DNA of 64,000 bases from Leifsonia virtsii. GTDB lineage: Bacteria > Actinomycetota > Actinomycetes > Actinomycetales > Microbacteriaceae. The translations under genes and the position numbers were made by a program. The notes below the pieces were generated by a model. That model was not told the DNA's origin. It was given only the letters and a program-made list of their open reading frames with translations, and did no database searches. Numbering within the stretch: position 1 is the first letter of the stretch; the number at the start of each line of letters is the position of its first letter. The stretch spans positions 124,001 to 188,000 of the forward strand of contig NZ_JAROCB010000002.1 in assembly GCF_030433675.1 (NCBI RefSeq). Reading direction: 5' to 3'. Of this stretch, positions 33,048-64,000 are shown in pieces.

Positions 33048-33121
33048 TGGAGCGAGTGACGGGAATCGAACCCGCGCTATCAGCTTGGGAAGCTGAGGTT
33101 CTACCATTGAACTACACTCGC
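33048..33121 (-). tRNA. tRNA-Gly (anticodon CCC)
   Basis: On the minus strand the 5' arm GCGAGTG (33121 down) pairs with CACTCGC, followed by discriminator T and an encoded CCA (33048-33050). The anticodon stem is TCAGC/GCTGA with loop TTCCCAA, giving anticodon CCC (tRNA-Gly), with U33 and A37 in the expected places. The T-arm reads GGTTCGATTCC-like. The 71-nt body plus CCA is the usual size. The T5orf172 gene stops 38 bp from its 3' end, so this tRNA borders the low-GC region. Confidence 0.93.
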
Positions 33122-59020: not shown

Positions 59021-61255
59021 TCAGCGCGCCCGGAACCGCCTCAGACGCAGGCTGTTGCCCACGACGAAGACGCTCGAGAAGGCCATCGCCGCGCCCGCGA
59101 TCATCGGGTTGAGCAGCCCGAGCGCCGCCAGCGGCAGCGCGGCAACGTTGTAGGCGAAGGCCCAGAACAGGTTGCCCTTGATGGTGCCCAGCGTGCGGCG
59201 GGCCAGGCGGATGGCGTCCACGGCCGCGCGCAGGTCACCGCGGACCAGCGTGATGTCGGCCGCCTCGATCGCGACATCCGTGCCGGTCCCCATCGCCAGC
59301 CCCAGGTCGGCCGCCGCCAGCGCGGCCGCGTCGTTGACCCCGTCGCCGACCATGGCGACCACGCGGCCCTGCGCCTGGAGCCGGGCCACCGCGTCCACCT
59401 TGTCTTCCGGCAGGACCTCGGCGATCACCTCGTGGATGCCGACCTCGTCGGCCACCCGGCGGGCGACCGCCGCGTTGTCGCCGGTGAGGAGGATGGGCGT
59501 CAGGCCGAGCGCGCGCAGGCCGGCGACGGCCTCCGCGCTCGTCGGCTTCACCGCGTCGGCGACGACGAGCAGCCCGCGCGCCTCGCCGTCCCAGGCGACG
59601 CAGACCACCGTGCGGCCCGCCGCCTCCTCGGCGTCCCGGCGTGCGGCGAGGTCCGCATCCAGCTCCATCGACCACTCGGACAGCAGGGATGCGCGGCCGA
59701 CCAGCACGAGGTGGCCGTCGACGACGCCGCGGACGCCGCGCCCCGCCTCGTTCGCGAACGACTCCGGCGCCGGCAGGTCCCCGGTCCGCTCACCGGCGGC
59801 CTGGGCGACGGCACGCGCGACAGGATGCTCGGACGCGTGCTCCACGGCGCCCGCGAGCCGCAGCAGCAGCCCCTCGTCGACGCCGTCTGCCGGGACGACC
59901 GCGGTGAGCGTCATGCGGCCCTCGGTGACCGTGCCGGTCTTGTCGAGCACGATCGTGTCGACCGTCTTCGTCGACTCCAGCACCTCCGGGCCCTTGATCA
60001 GCACGCCGAGCTGCGCGCCCCGGCCGGTGCCGACCAGCAGCGCGGTCGGTGTCGCCAGGCCGAGCGCGCACGGGCAGGCGATGATGAGCACCGCGACGGC
60101 CGCGGTGAACGCGACGGCGGGGGAGGAGCCGGAGAGCAGCCAGACCGCGAGCGTGGCGACGGCGATCACGAGCACGACGGGCACGAACACCGCGGAGATG
60201 CGGTCGGCGAGCCGCTGGACCTGCGCCTTGCCCGACTGCGCGTCCCCCACCAGCTTCGCCATCTGCGCCAGCCGGGTGTCGGCGCCGACCCGGGTCGCGC
60301 GCACCACGAGCCGGCCGCCCGCGTTGACGGTGGCACCGGTCACGTCGTCGCCGGCGGTCACCTCGACGGGCGCGGACTCGCCGGTGAGCAGCGAGAGGTC
60401 GACCGCGCTCGCCCCCTCGGCGACCACGCCGTCGGTCGCGATCTTCTCGCCCGGGCGCACCACGAACAGGTCGCCGACGGCGAGGCGGTCGACCGGGATG
60501 CGCTCCTCGCGTCCCTCCCGCAGCACGGCGACATCCTTCGCGCCCAGGTCGAGCAGCGCCCGCAGCGCGGCTCCGGCCCGGCGCTTCGCGCGCTTCTCGG
60601 CGTACCGGCCGGCCAGCACGAACACCGTCACGCCGGAGGCGACCTCGAGGTAGATGTCGCCCGCGGCATCCGAAGGGCTCGCGACGAAGGTGAAGGGATG
60701 CGTCATCCCGGGCATCCCCGCCGTCCCGAAGAACAGCGCGTACAGCGACCAGGCGAACGCGGCGATCGTGCCGATCGACACCAGCGTGTCCATCGTCGCC
60801 GCCCCGTGGCGGGCGTTGACCAGCGCGGCACGGTGGAACGGCCAGCCGCCCCACACCACGACCGGCGCCGCGAGGGTGAGCGAGAGCCACTGCCAGTAGG
60901 TGAACTGGAAGGCGGGCACCATCGCGAGCACGACCACCGGAGCGGCGAGCACGGCGCTGCCGACCAGGCGGGTGCGGAGGGAGGACAGCTCGGGGTCGGC
61001 GTCCCGCTCGGGCCGCTCGGGCTCCCGCGCCGGGAGGGCGGCCGTGTAGCCGGCCTTCTCCACTTCGGCGATCAGGGTCTGCGCATCCATGCCGGCTGGC
61101 ACCGACACGCGCGCCTTCTCCGTCGCGTAGTTGACCGTCGCGGTGACGCCGTCGAGGCGGTTGAGCTTCTTCTCGATCCGCATCGCGCAGGACGCGCACG
61201 TCATCCCGCCAACCTCCAGTTCGAGGTCGGTCACGCCGGTCGCCGGGGTGGTCAC
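59021..61255 (-). CDS. copA: Copper-translocating P-type ATPase (CopA-like)
   Basis: A 744-residue P1B-type ATPase. One N-terminal HMA domain ([19 protein letters not shown] with the GMTCASC metal site), TM helices, the CPC motif in [17 protein letters not shown], the phosphorylation site [12 protein letters not shown] in [10 protein letters not shown], and [21 protein letters not shown] Cu(I) exporter. GTG start, 8 bp after the chaperone stop. Downstream of the CsoR-like site, so likely copper-induced. Confidence 0.94.
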
Positions 61256-61263
61256 GGGACGCG

Positions 61264-61473
61264 CTACCGACGCTCTGCGCTGTAGCCCGCCTCGTCGACG
61301 GCCGCCAGCACGGCGGCGTCGTCGACCGGACCGTCCGCCGACACCGCGAGCAAACCGTCGGTCGAGGAGACCGTCACCTCGCGCACGCCGGCGACGCGGG
61401 TCACCTCCTCGGTCACCGCCCGCTCGCAGTGCTCGCACGTCATCCCGGTCACCTGGTACTCGATCGTCTGCAT
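61264..61473 (-). CDS. copZ: Heavy-metal-associated (CopZ-like) chaperone
   Basis: A 69-residue single HMA domain: [19 protein letters not shown] with the GMTCxxC copper site, then [19 protein letters not shown] and [11 protein letters not shown]. It would deliver Cu(I) to the adjacent pump. ATG 61473 chosen; a second possible start lies 9 bp upstream. First gene of the operon behind a CsoR-like operator. Confidence 0.9.
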
Positions 61474-61483
61474 GCCAACCAAT

Positions 61484-61500
61484 ATACCCCTACCCGGTAT
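61484..61500. promoter_or_regulatory. CsoR-type copper operator
   Basis: ATACCCCTACCCGGTAT: ATACC/GGTAT arms around a pyrimidine-rich centre, 11 bp before the copZ-like start. CsoR sites share a GTAT/ATAC palindrome with a C-rich centre, and the site is in the promoter-proximal position used by CsoR. No csoR gene lies in the window. Confidence 0.6.
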
Positions 61501-61782
61501 CGGTGCAAGCGGCGGCCCATGATCATCGGTACGCCGGCGGCCTGTTGTTCATCGAGGTCGATTCGAATAGCAATCGCACCCGGTGAAACCGTCTCTCGCG
61601 CGCGAAGGGATGCCCGCGGCATCCCCGCTCTATTCGGCCCGCAGTGAAGCGCCCAATGCGCACGCATAGACCGGCAACCGCGGGCTGCCCCCCGTCATCA
61701 GGCTCGCGAATTCTCTGCGGTACCGCGTCATAGCGGATCGGTTAGTGCGTCATTAACGGTAGAAGGTCACCGGCGCCCCCAC
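61501..61782. other. Gene-free spacer before the P450 gene
   Basis: About 280 bp between the copper operon and the P450 gene; I see no gene in it. GCGTCAT is repeated directly at 61725-61731 and 61747-61753 (22 bp apart), the second followed by TAACGGTAGAAGG. These could be activator half-sites or ECF-type promoter parts. The base composition falls from here to the end of the window. Confidence 0.45.
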
Positions 61783-63030
61783 GTGGGGTTCGACCACCCC
61801 AGTGTGTCCCTCACACGACGCAAGGCAGTCTTTGCAGATTGGCAGAATGTGGCAGTTCGACGACTCGGACCGACAATTACTCGTTACGAACCACTCGACG
61901 TGGATACGCTCGCTGATCCATATCCCGCGTATTCCGCGCTGAGGGCAGTTCCTGGCCTCTACTGGCACGAGGGCATGAGGAGCTATGTCGCCTCGCGGTA
62001 TCACGCTTGCAAGGTCGTACTAAGCGACAACTCTCGCTTCGCGAAGGACCGGAAGCGGATCGCCTCGCTGTCGTCGCCGGACATCCCCCGGAGCGTCCAG
62101 ACCGAGGACCCTCCTAACAGGCTTGGACTTCGGCAGAAATTCAGACAGACACTGCGTCAGATGGATCTAGACCAGATCTGCGCGGAGGTTGGGGAGCGCT
62201 TGGACCAGCGGCTGTCCAACGCGGGTGGCGACTTCGATTTCGTACGCGACGTCGCCAACCCGGCGGCTCTCGACTTGACGGCGACAGTGTTCGGGCTCAA
62301 CCAAGTTCAGGCTGAAGACTATGTGAGTTGTCACCGGGCGTTACAGCGAGCGACCGACGGCGGACTCGATCCGACCCGTCGCACAGAAGGACGTCGTGCC
62401 GGTGCGCTGTTGCAAAAGTACGCTGCCGAATGGATCGAGCAAGACGGGGTCGAAGCACTGCTCGCTCCAGCGAAAGCCTTTGCGCAGAAGTTCCCGAAGG
62501 ACTACGTGATCAACACGTTTGCGGGAATGGTGAACGCGAGCTTCAGTACCGCCGCATCGCTTACGTCGGGGATATTCAGTCTCTTGGTGAGTGACCAGAA
62601 CTTGGTGATCCAAGCTCGTGAGGCCATGCGATCGGGAGCCGGACTAATCGCTGCCAACGAATTCCTGAGGTTCCTGGCACCGGCTCAGGCAACCAGTCGA
62701 TTCGTCGTTCAAGCCTGCGAGGTGGAGGGAACCGACCTTGAACCCGGTGACACCGTTGTGACCCTCATGGCCTCCGCCAATCGTGACCCGGACTACTTCA
62801 AAGATCCCGATGAACTTGACCTCTTTCGTTCTCCCAACCGTCACCTCTCCTTCGCGGCTGGCCCGCATCTGTGTCTCGGGAGAAGGCTTGCAGAGCAGTG
62901 GGGAGCAGAACTGATTCGCCGACTGGTCGAGACAGAACTCTTGGGCACCCTCACCACTGGCCGCGCCGCCCATCTCGACAGCGCGACAGTGAGGTCGATG
63001 GTGTCGCTTCCGGTCAGGCGGGAGTCATAG
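61783..63030 (+). CDS. Cytochrome P450 of a minimal-RiPP-like cluster
   Basis: A 415-residue (or shorter) bacterial P450. The heme loop is SFAAGPHLCLGRRLA with the Cys ligand at about residue 370, ExxR is NEFLRFLAP, and the I-helix reads FAGMVNASFSTAASL, where the usual acid-Thr pair is replaced by a Ser/Thr-rich stretch. Start is uncertain: GTG 61783 (weak Shine-Dalgarno), GTG 61804 or GTG 61849. The gene is co-oriented with the heptapeptide gene 185 bp after its stop. P450s with this partner crosslink aromatic side chains in minimal RiPPs (biarylitides). Confidence 0.85.
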   Translation: MGFDHPSVSLTRRKAVFADWQNVAVRRLGPTITRYEPLDVDTLADPYPAYSALRAVPGLYWHEGMRSYVASRYHACKVVLSDNSRFAKDRKRIASLSSPDIPRSVQTEDPPNRLGLRQKFRQTLRQMDLDQICAEVGERLDQRLSNAGGDFDFVRDVANPAALDLTATVFGLNQVQAEDYVSCHRALQRATDGGLDPTRRTEGRRAGALLQKYAAEWIEQDGVEALLAPAKAFAQKFPKDYVINTFAGMVNASFSTAASLTSGIFSLLVSDQNLVIQAREAMRSGAGLIAANEFLRFLAPAQATSRFVVQACEVEGTDLEPGDTVVTLMASANRDPDYFKDPDELDLFRSPNRHLSFAAGPHLCLGRRLAEQWGAELIRRLVETELLGTLTTGRAAHLDSATVRSMVSLPVRRES

Positions 63031-63214
63031 CGTGCGGACAACAGTCGGCGCAGGCATTCGACAGCGTCTAGCCGGCGTCTGCCAGATCCAGGACTGGTAC
63101 GAGTCTTCGGCTGTCGACCCAATCGCCGCGGCGGCTGGTCGCGAGCCGATAGACACCGAGCGTCGAAAAACGAGGCTCGGTCATCAAATGGAGCATTCGA
63201 AAGGAGGCTTTGCA

Positions 63215-63238
63215 ATGGAGTACAACCACATCACCTGA
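63215..63238 (+). CDS. Heptapeptide precursor gene, MEYNHIT
   Basis: A seven-codon gene (24 bp with stop): Met-Glu-Tyr-Asn-His-Ile-Thr. A perfect AAAGGAGG lies 7 bp upstream of the ATG, stronger than for most genes here. Tyr and His at positions 3 and 5 reproduce the Tyr-x-His core of biarylitide precursors (e.g. MRYYH), which a P450 joins through their side chains. In frame, the same end can be read from GTG 63032 (68 residues) or ATG 63188 (16 residues, MEHSKGG..), but those starts lack a comparable ribosome site. A perfect hairpin follows 4 bp after the stop. Confidence 0.68.
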   Translation: MEYNHIT

Positions 63239-63242
63239 CCTG

Positions 63243-63278
63243 TGTGCGGAGGCTCCCATCCAATGGAGCCTCCGCACA
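63243..63278 (+). terminator. Perfect 14-bp hairpin after the heptapeptide gene
   Basis: TGTGCGGAGGCTCC (63243-63256), loop of 8 (CATCCAAT), GGAGCCTCCGCACA (63265-63278). No U-tract follows, so it is likely a partial terminator or mRNA-protecting stem placed between the peptide gene and the amidinotransferase gene, as often seen after RiPP precursor genes. Confidence 0.7.
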
Positions 63279-63330
63279 TCGACGAAACGCCAGTCAGGAC
63301 GATGGAAGCATCACGATTGAGGAATCCGCT

Positions 63331-64000
63331 TTGACAACCGTAAATACGCACAATGACTGGGACCCGCTAAAGGAAATCATCGTTGGCTCCGCAGAAAACT
63401 ACACATCTCATGACCGCGAACTGTCCTTCGATGTGTTCTTCCATGAGAATCTGTTTCGGTCTGACTGGGCTTACCCCCGCCTGACGCAAGCTACTCGACT
63501 GGACACGGGGCGACGCTCTTGGGCCATCAAGCAGCGGTACGTCGAAGAGCTTTCCGAGGACGTGGAGAGCTTGGCTGTAACGCTCTCAGCGCTGGGGGTG
63601 ACGGTACGGCGCCCCAAGACTCTTCCTCCGAATGCCGCATGCATCTCAGGATTCGGGTGGGAAGCCCCACCTGTACCAGCGCTAAACATCCGCGACAACA
63701 CTCTCATCGTCGGGTCTGAGATCATCGAGACCCCTCCGGCCATCCGATCTCGTTATCTTGAAACGCGACTACTCGCGCCTGTCTTCGCCGACTACTTTCG
63801 GGCCGGTGCGGATTGGACGACCATGCCGCGCCCGGTACTGACGGACACGTCATTCGACCTGTCCTACGCTCGAGACACCGAGTCGACTCTGGGCGGTCCG
63901 ACAGAGCCCATCGAGGAACCGCAGCCGACCCCCTTCGACGTCGGCCTCGAGATGATTCTCGACGGCGCGCAATGTCTGCGGCTCGGGCGTGACATCATCA
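63331..64000 (+). CDS. Arginine amidinotransferase (StrB/GATM family), 3' partial
   Basis: The first 223 residues; the gene leaves the window. TTG start (AACCGTAAATACG follows). NDWDPLKEIIVGSAENY, SALGVTVRRPKTLP, NTLIVGSEIIETPPAIRSRYLE, LAPVFADYFRAGADW and LDGAQCLRLGRDII follow the StrB1/glycine amidinotransferase order. They transfer the amidino group of arginine onto an amine. In StrB1 the catalytic-Asp region reads FDAANVLRFGTD; here it is LDGAQCLRLGRD, a change next to a conserved Asp. The His and Cys of the triad are beyond the window. Likely an RiPP-cluster tailoring enzyme. Confidence 0.82.
   Translation, partial: MTTVNTHNDWDPLKEIIVGSAENYTSHDRELSFDVFFHENLFRSDWAYPRLTQATRLDTGRRSWAIKQRYVEELSEDVESLAVTLSALGVTVRRPKTLPPNAACISGFGWEAPPVPALNIRDNTLIVGSEIIETPPAIRSRYLETRLLAPVFADYFRAGADWTTMPRPVLTDTSFDLSYARDTESTLGGPTEPIEEPQPTPFDVGLEMILDGAQCLRLGRDII

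Follow-up and report, generated by a model that had tools for sequence, protein, structure and literature searches.

The window analysed here, a 64,000-nucleotide stretch of the Leifsonia virtsii genome, ends within a compact gene set that encodes, in order, a cytochrome P450, the seven-residue peptide MEYNHIT, an amidinotransferase (AmT), an ATP-grasp ligase and an MFS exporter. With some reserve, we favor the reading that these genes form one cluster, in which the P450 joins Tyr3 to His5 of the MEYNHIT peptide and the AmT and ligase likely cap the peptide N-terminus with a guanidine-bearing amino acid. The cluster runs past the window end and was followed into L003, a sequence from the same contig in which window position equals L003 position plus 60000. 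There, as judged from the sequence and the L003 open reading frames (ORFs), the exporter gene is followed by a gene beginning at L003:7282 that we take to be dcd.

A preliminary description of this DNA had arranged a P450 gene, a MEYNHIT gene with a Shine-Dalgarno (SD) site, a hairpin and an amidinotransferase gene in this way, and the sequence, coordinates and fold scores confirm that layout (Table 1). The N-terminus of the P450 is uncertain, with the GTG at 61849 giving the better fit to the length of its relatives. The AmT frame starts at approximately the TTG at 63334 and is complete, at 380 amino acids, in L003:3334-4476. Directly upstream of the cluster, on the minus strand (59021-61482), lie genes that we take to encode a P-type metal ATPase (copA-like) and a small metal-binding protein (copZ-like).

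Table 1. Features of the MEYNHIT cluster, in window coordinates or, where prefixed, in L003 coordinates
Feature	Position	Strand	Basis
Cytochrome P450	61783-63030	+	PF00067, 57.6 bits; PDB relatives P450Blt and RufO; tree
Possible GTG ORF, 68 codons, in frame with MEYNHIT	63032-63238	+	Weak similarity to a small ORF in L006
SD site AAGGAGG	63201-63207	+	7-nt spacer to ATG; sequence and scan
Seven-codon precursor gene MEYNHIT	63215-63238	+	Sequence; seven- and five-codon relatives
Hairpin directly 3′ of the precursor gene	63242-63279	+	15-bp stem, 8-nt loop, fold z -6.96
AmT, cut by the window end	63334-64000	+	StrB1/AGAT/SxtG relatives; catalytic triad
PGM1-like ATP-grasp ligase	L003:4473-5786	+	PGM1 match, PF18604
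MFS exporter	L003:5823-7052	+	L003 ORFs

Across both strands of the 64-kb window, and with no SD site demanded, MEYNHIT is the sole ATG-initiated ORF of five to eight codons that carries Tyr at position 3 and His, Tyr or Trp at position 5. When the SD rule was applied, no such mini-ORF arose in 2000 dinucleotide shuffles of positions 61480-64000. MEYNHIT agrees with the published search rule for biarylitide precursors, which specifies 5-8 amino acids, aromatic at the third and fifth position, encoded near a P450 gene (PMC13417212). The class is nonetheless described as having precursors of exactly five residues, and seven codons are present here and in two related loci (L006 and L009); we therefore treat the MEYNHIT system as a variant that works like a biarylitide. 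The hairpin behind the gene has a predicted folding energy of -31.5 kcal/mol, which none of 200 shuffled sequences equaled, and a hairpin with z at or below -1.7 follows the mini-ORF in 22 of 24 biarylitide-type loci (see below), the exceptions being L121 (-0.3) and L159 (0.1). It may serve to set apart or protect the precursor message. An intrinsic terminator was rejected, as no terminator-like site was found behind the mini-ORF, and a known RNA family was likewise rejected, since L003 1000-8000 gave no Rfam hit at E values up to 1.

Relatives of the cluster were collected through the AmT. Counting the host itself in each case, AmT matches occur in 2 of 398 genomes of the host's family (E 1e-20), 3 of 396 of its phylum (1e-100) and 3 of 396 of its order (1e-140). 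They occur in 15 of 295 genomes of the genus of G744, by inference Streptomyces (1e-140), in 22 of 277 of the corresponding family (1e-150) and in 1 of 216 of Arthrobacter's family (1e-120). A separate database search with the AmT covered the best 120 of 1473 matches; among the matches listed, AmTs that are 70-80% identical (P0124, P0133, P0140, P0178 and P0210) are filed under the organism names Rothia, Methylobacterium, Bacillus cereus, Rhizobium and Vibrio. The neighborhoods of 50 AmT genes, each 13-20 kb, were then classed as biarylitide-type (24), dpg-type (20) or neither (6: L099, L100, L131, L132, L168 and L174). This set leaves out most AmT relatives from other phyla and the plasmid matches H8 and H10, and L117 was dropped from the counts as the same plasmid stretch as L093. 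The cut-off for a biarylitide-type P450, 160 bits, was set after the data had been seen, with the 24 loci scoring 296-801 and all others 103 or less.

All 24 biarylitide-type loci, which come mostly from related Streptomycetaceae and are not independent of one another, carry a PGM1-like ligase and a mini-ORF of the form MxY[D/N][H/Y], and none has a dpg match. The preliminary description had called for a search for YxH mini-ORFs near P450 genes in relatives, and all the P450-plus-AmT loci examined contain a mini-ORF of the form given above. In 22 of the 24 loci its distance from the P450 gene is no more than 800 bp, the exceptions being L160 and L163, where the precursor stands away from that gene (MIYNH at L160:4014; MSYDY at L163:7576). 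Under a strict GGAGG rule the nearby count falls to 15 of 24, and it is 22 of 24 under a wider rule or none. Among the dpg-type loci, 14 of 20 include a PGM1-like ligase in the stretch examined, and the annotation of one, L098, names a pheganomycin family precursor. L099, on a plasmid of Streptomyces sp. KN37, retains the later part of the AmT gene only, a second ATP-grasp gene and a kinase gene, with no P450 or PGM1-like match, and is apparently a decayed cluster of the five-codon type.

With a length of 24 bp, MEYNHIT could in principle be an accidental frame lying between the genes of two enzymes that have nothing to do with each other. The shuffling result argues against this reading, as do 75 control P450 loci (stretches averaging 12.7 kb), none of which has a mini-ORF within 800 bp of the P450 under any of the three rules and one of which has a mini-ORF anywhere when the SD rule is dropped. 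We therefore reject chance as scarcely credible, and the recurrence of the mini-ORF in every relevant locus brings it close to refuted. A point absent from the preliminary description is that MEYNHIT is also the in-frame end of the 68-codon GTG ORF, which, were it the true precursor with MEYNHIT as its C-terminal core, would make the gene no longer minimal. That frame is open, begins just behind the P450 stop codon and has GGGAG 7 nt before its GTG. Its CQIQDWYE segment also resembles CQIGDWYE in a small ORF (L006:6245-6415) that precedes the MTYNHIV gene of L006, and the shared pattern RL...CQIxDWYE was equaled in 1 of 500 shuffles, L006 being one of 16 loci tested. In L006, however, the small ORF and the mini-ORF are distinct frames that overlap in an ATGA stop-start, and the similarity extended neither to L009 (equaled in 294 of 500 shuffles) nor to the 14 five-codon loci that were tested (20 of 500 in the best case). 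The five-codon genes are also free-standing, the ATG at 63215 is immediately preceded by a strong SD site, and a database search with the 68-residue ORF returned itself only. A longer precursor thus appears improbable, and we retain the seven-codon gene.

Biarylitide-type loci fall into two sub-types. The seven-codon group, MxY[N/D]HIx, comprises MEYNHIT in the window, MTYNHIV in Cellulomonas triticagri (L006) and MLYDHIA in Arthrobacter silvisoli (L009); it stays at three loci because the only AmT match in Arthrobacter's family is A. silvisoli's own. The gene order in C. triticagri is MTYNHIV, P450, AmT, ligase and MFS, and in A. silvisoli a divergent MFS gene is followed by MLYDHIA, P450, AmT, ligase and a peptide deformylase gene (L009:10548-11168; PF01327, 124.6 bits) whose frame overlaps that of the ligase. 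This deformylase may serve the formyl-Met of the mini-peptide. Both loci have an MFS gene by Pfam, and the MFS protein of the window gave no tblastn match at 1e-8 in either. The other 21 loci have five-codon mini-ORFs (MSYDH, MTYDH, MIYNH or MSYDY) and commonly encode further enzymes: an Asp/Asn hydroxylase match in 17, a second ATP-grasp protein of the L-amino-acid-ligase type in 16 and an APH-like kinase in 20, none of which was found in the three seven-codon loci. The kinase, whose gene adjoins the five-codon clusters of L093-L096, L118-L123, L134, L135 and L158-L165, perhaps points to self-protection or to a phosphorylated intermediate.

The best PDB relatives of the window P450 include 8u2m and 9eby, which are P450Blt and RufO (PMC12186263). 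In a 48-member P450 tree, the enzyme of the window belongs with both to a clade of 36 (100% SH-aLRT) that also holds 12 of the 21 five-codon loci, the number included in the tree, together with both other seven-codon loci and the Lysinibacillus MQWNY enzyme; the tree was built by a quick method without bootstrap and has some long branches. A database search scored the 7999 candidates sharing most words and kept the best 120 of 421 matches, and among the matches listed the closest near-full-length relatives (P0002-P0007) are 59-67% identical. Clade membership and the mini-ORF present in all 24 loci support the earlier proposal of a biarylitide-like minimal RiPP. Because the P450 falls in this clade and the mini-peptide has Tyr3 and His5, the enzyme likely joins the side chains of these two residues.

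The AmT can be aligned along its length with inosamine-phosphate amidinotransferase, AGAT, SxtG and HsvA, and the catalytic Asp, His and Cys, equivalent to AGAT D254, H303 and C407, are kept in all 44 aligned AmTs, including that of the window. In biarylitide-type AmTs the catalytic His is preceded by Asn (24 of 24) and in dpg-type AmTs by Ser (20 of 20), a difference that hints at different acceptors. The two types also stand apart in an AmT tree of 64 rows (without L158-L177), made by a quick method without bootstrap. The ligase matches PGM1 (3wvq) with E 6.7e-51 over 385 residues and carries PF18604. PGM1 links the core peptide of pheganomycin to a guanidinoacetic-acid residue (PMC8939145), and in ketomemicin clusters an ATP-grasp ligase is paired with an amidinotransferase (PMC11943689); from these precedents, the AmT likely makes an N-alpha-amidino amino acid that is added by the ligase. 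By analogy with pheganomycin, such an amidino acid would likely cap the peptide N-terminus. Dihydroxyphenylglycine is unlikely to be the amidinated acid, since tblastn at 1e-8 found neither dpgA nor dpgC across the 20 kb of L003.

In the proposed pathway, formyl-Met-Glu-Tyr-Asn-His-Ile-Thr would be translated from its own ribosome site and its Tyr3 and His5 then cross-linked by the P450. Met-Glu, and perhaps Ile-Thr, would be removed by peptidases from outside the cluster. This order is assumed from myxarylin, in which the cross-link is formed first and the leader is then removed, likely by a host peptidase (PMC12951456). The AmT would take an amidino group from arginine and place it on a free amino acid, at its alpha-amine, the ligase would join this amidino amino acid to the freed peptide N-terminus, and the MFS protein would export the product. 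As a fuller proposal, which we regard as evenly balanced, the seven-codon loci would constitute a separate RiPP lineage of guanidino-capped biarylitides, in which cross-linked Tyr-Asn-His(-Ile-Thr) is extended at its N-terminus with a non-ribosomal N-alpha-amidino acid by the AmT and the PGM1-type ligase, with removal of formyl-Met aided by the deformylase in one relative.

Two other readings of the enzymes bear on this pathway. The P450 might modify the mini-peptide in another way, for example by nitrating or hydroxylating Tyr3, since its clade includes RufO, which nitrates Tyr instead of cross-linking; two changes in the I-helix let RufO cross-link too (PMC12186263). Most characterized relatives named by PMC13417212 are cross-linking enzymes, however, and no nitric oxide synthase was recognized by eye among the L003 ORFs, so that we consider such chemistry rather unlikely. 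The preliminary description had guessed that the peptide itself is amidinated. In that case the AmT would modify the amine freed at Tyr3, with the ligase adding an unmodified residue or working elsewhere. The AmT family takes varied acceptors, and the sav cluster of Saccharothrix variisporea has an AmT while its description names two tailoring enzymes only, without a ligase (PMC13417212). Against this stand the kinship of the AmT to the dpg-type proteins of pheganomycin-like clusters and the occurrence of AmT and PGM1-like ligase together in all 24 biarylitide-type and in 14 of 20 dpg-type loci, on account of which the addition of an amidino amino acid as a cap is the better fit. Expression of sav yielded cross-linked YVH only and no amidinated peptide (PMC13417212), a result that weighs against direct amidination and also against the capping model, though no ligase is named in that system. 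Also counting against capping are the six dpg-type stretches that lack the ligase and the six AmT loci that fit neither kind. The guess is accordingly revised, both routes being inferred, and direct amidination is kept as a minor alternative to N-terminal capping.

The cluster shares parts with several known systems and differs from each. It resembles those of biarylitides (P450Blt, BytO; PMC13417212, PMC12951456) in having a mini-gene with Tyr3 and His5 beside a P450 of the same clade and in having no recognized protease, and it differs in its seven codons with a His-Ile-Thr end, in a P450 distant from P450Blt and in the addition of an AmT, a PGM1-like ligase and an exporter. Of 277 biarylitide clusters reported in 2026, 47 have a PGM1 homologue and Asp4 and were termed biarylitide/pheganomycin hybrids (PMC13417212); they share the biarylitide P450, mini-precursor and PGM1 homologue with the window cluster and are probably the MSYDH loci found here. 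The window cluster instead has Asn4 and seven codons and, unlike most MSYDH loci, is without the Asp hydroxylase, second ATP-grasp and APH-like kinase genes. No AmT is named for these hybrids in the main text of PMC13417212. The sav cluster (MRYVH) shares the biarylitide set and an AmT with the window, and is set apart by five codons, Val4 and an Asp hydroxylase (PMC13417212).

Pheganomycin and the guanidinotides provide the second relationship: the window cluster has a sister-group AmT with an intact catalytic triad and a PGM1-type ATP-grasp ligase, both of them guanidinotide traits. It has no dpg or radical SAM match in L003, however, and its precursor is a mini-gene with a biarylitide P450; membership among the pheganomycins was rejected for want of a dpg match. 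Ketomemicin clusters likewise combine an ATP-grasp ligase and an AmT (ktmD, ktmE) but are non-ribosomal, and ktmA, ktmB, ktmC and ktmF were not recognized by eye among the L003 ORFs. The preliminary description had placed an amidinotransferase outside the biarylitide core set, although savT of S. variisporea is already in print beside that set (PMC13417212). A full-text literature search found amidinotransferase together with biarylitide in that paper alone, and a broader one, judged from titles and abstracts, yielded no second paper on biarylitides; its main text uses the word once, for sav, and does not contain "YNH", "YDH" or "seven amino acid", though its supplements may list such cases. 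The hybrid principle is thus in print; what appears to be added here is the AmT-ligase pairing over 24 loci and the seven-codon group, together with the recurrent hairpin and the deformylase gene in one relative.

The lower GC of the segment, which the preliminary description took to fit transfer, is borne out by values of 0.57-0.62 over 61.5-64 kb as compared with 0.67-0.80 over 50-61.7 kb. The dcd gene is present in 16 of 16 genomes of the genus, host included, and none of the 14 genus mates with a returned locus shows either the MFS gene or the P450 gene within the 1.5 kb that precede it; in three mates read further, DNA similarity begins at L003:7260-7261. The cluster is therefore an insert or variable stretch beside dcd. 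A tRNA at the dcd boundary was rejected as a landing site, there being none in the 20 kb of L003. A tRNA-Gly gene (33048-33121) and dcd (approximately 67260; L003:7260) bracket about 34 kb here, as compared with about 4.5 and 5.9 kb between the same marks in two genus mates, so that the longer stretch here has the appearance of a variable region or island.

Biarylitides have no known biological function, the compounds tested were inactive, and at least the sav compound has been suggested to be an unfinished intermediate (PMC13417212). If the AmT-ligase pair caps the peptide, the tripeptides tested from such clusters would have been without their working end, and the missing activity becomes testable; the compact set of five genes could be rebuilt in a laboratory host. 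If the proposed pathway is true, these clusters would connect the smallest ribosomal precursors known with an extension of non-ribosomal origin.
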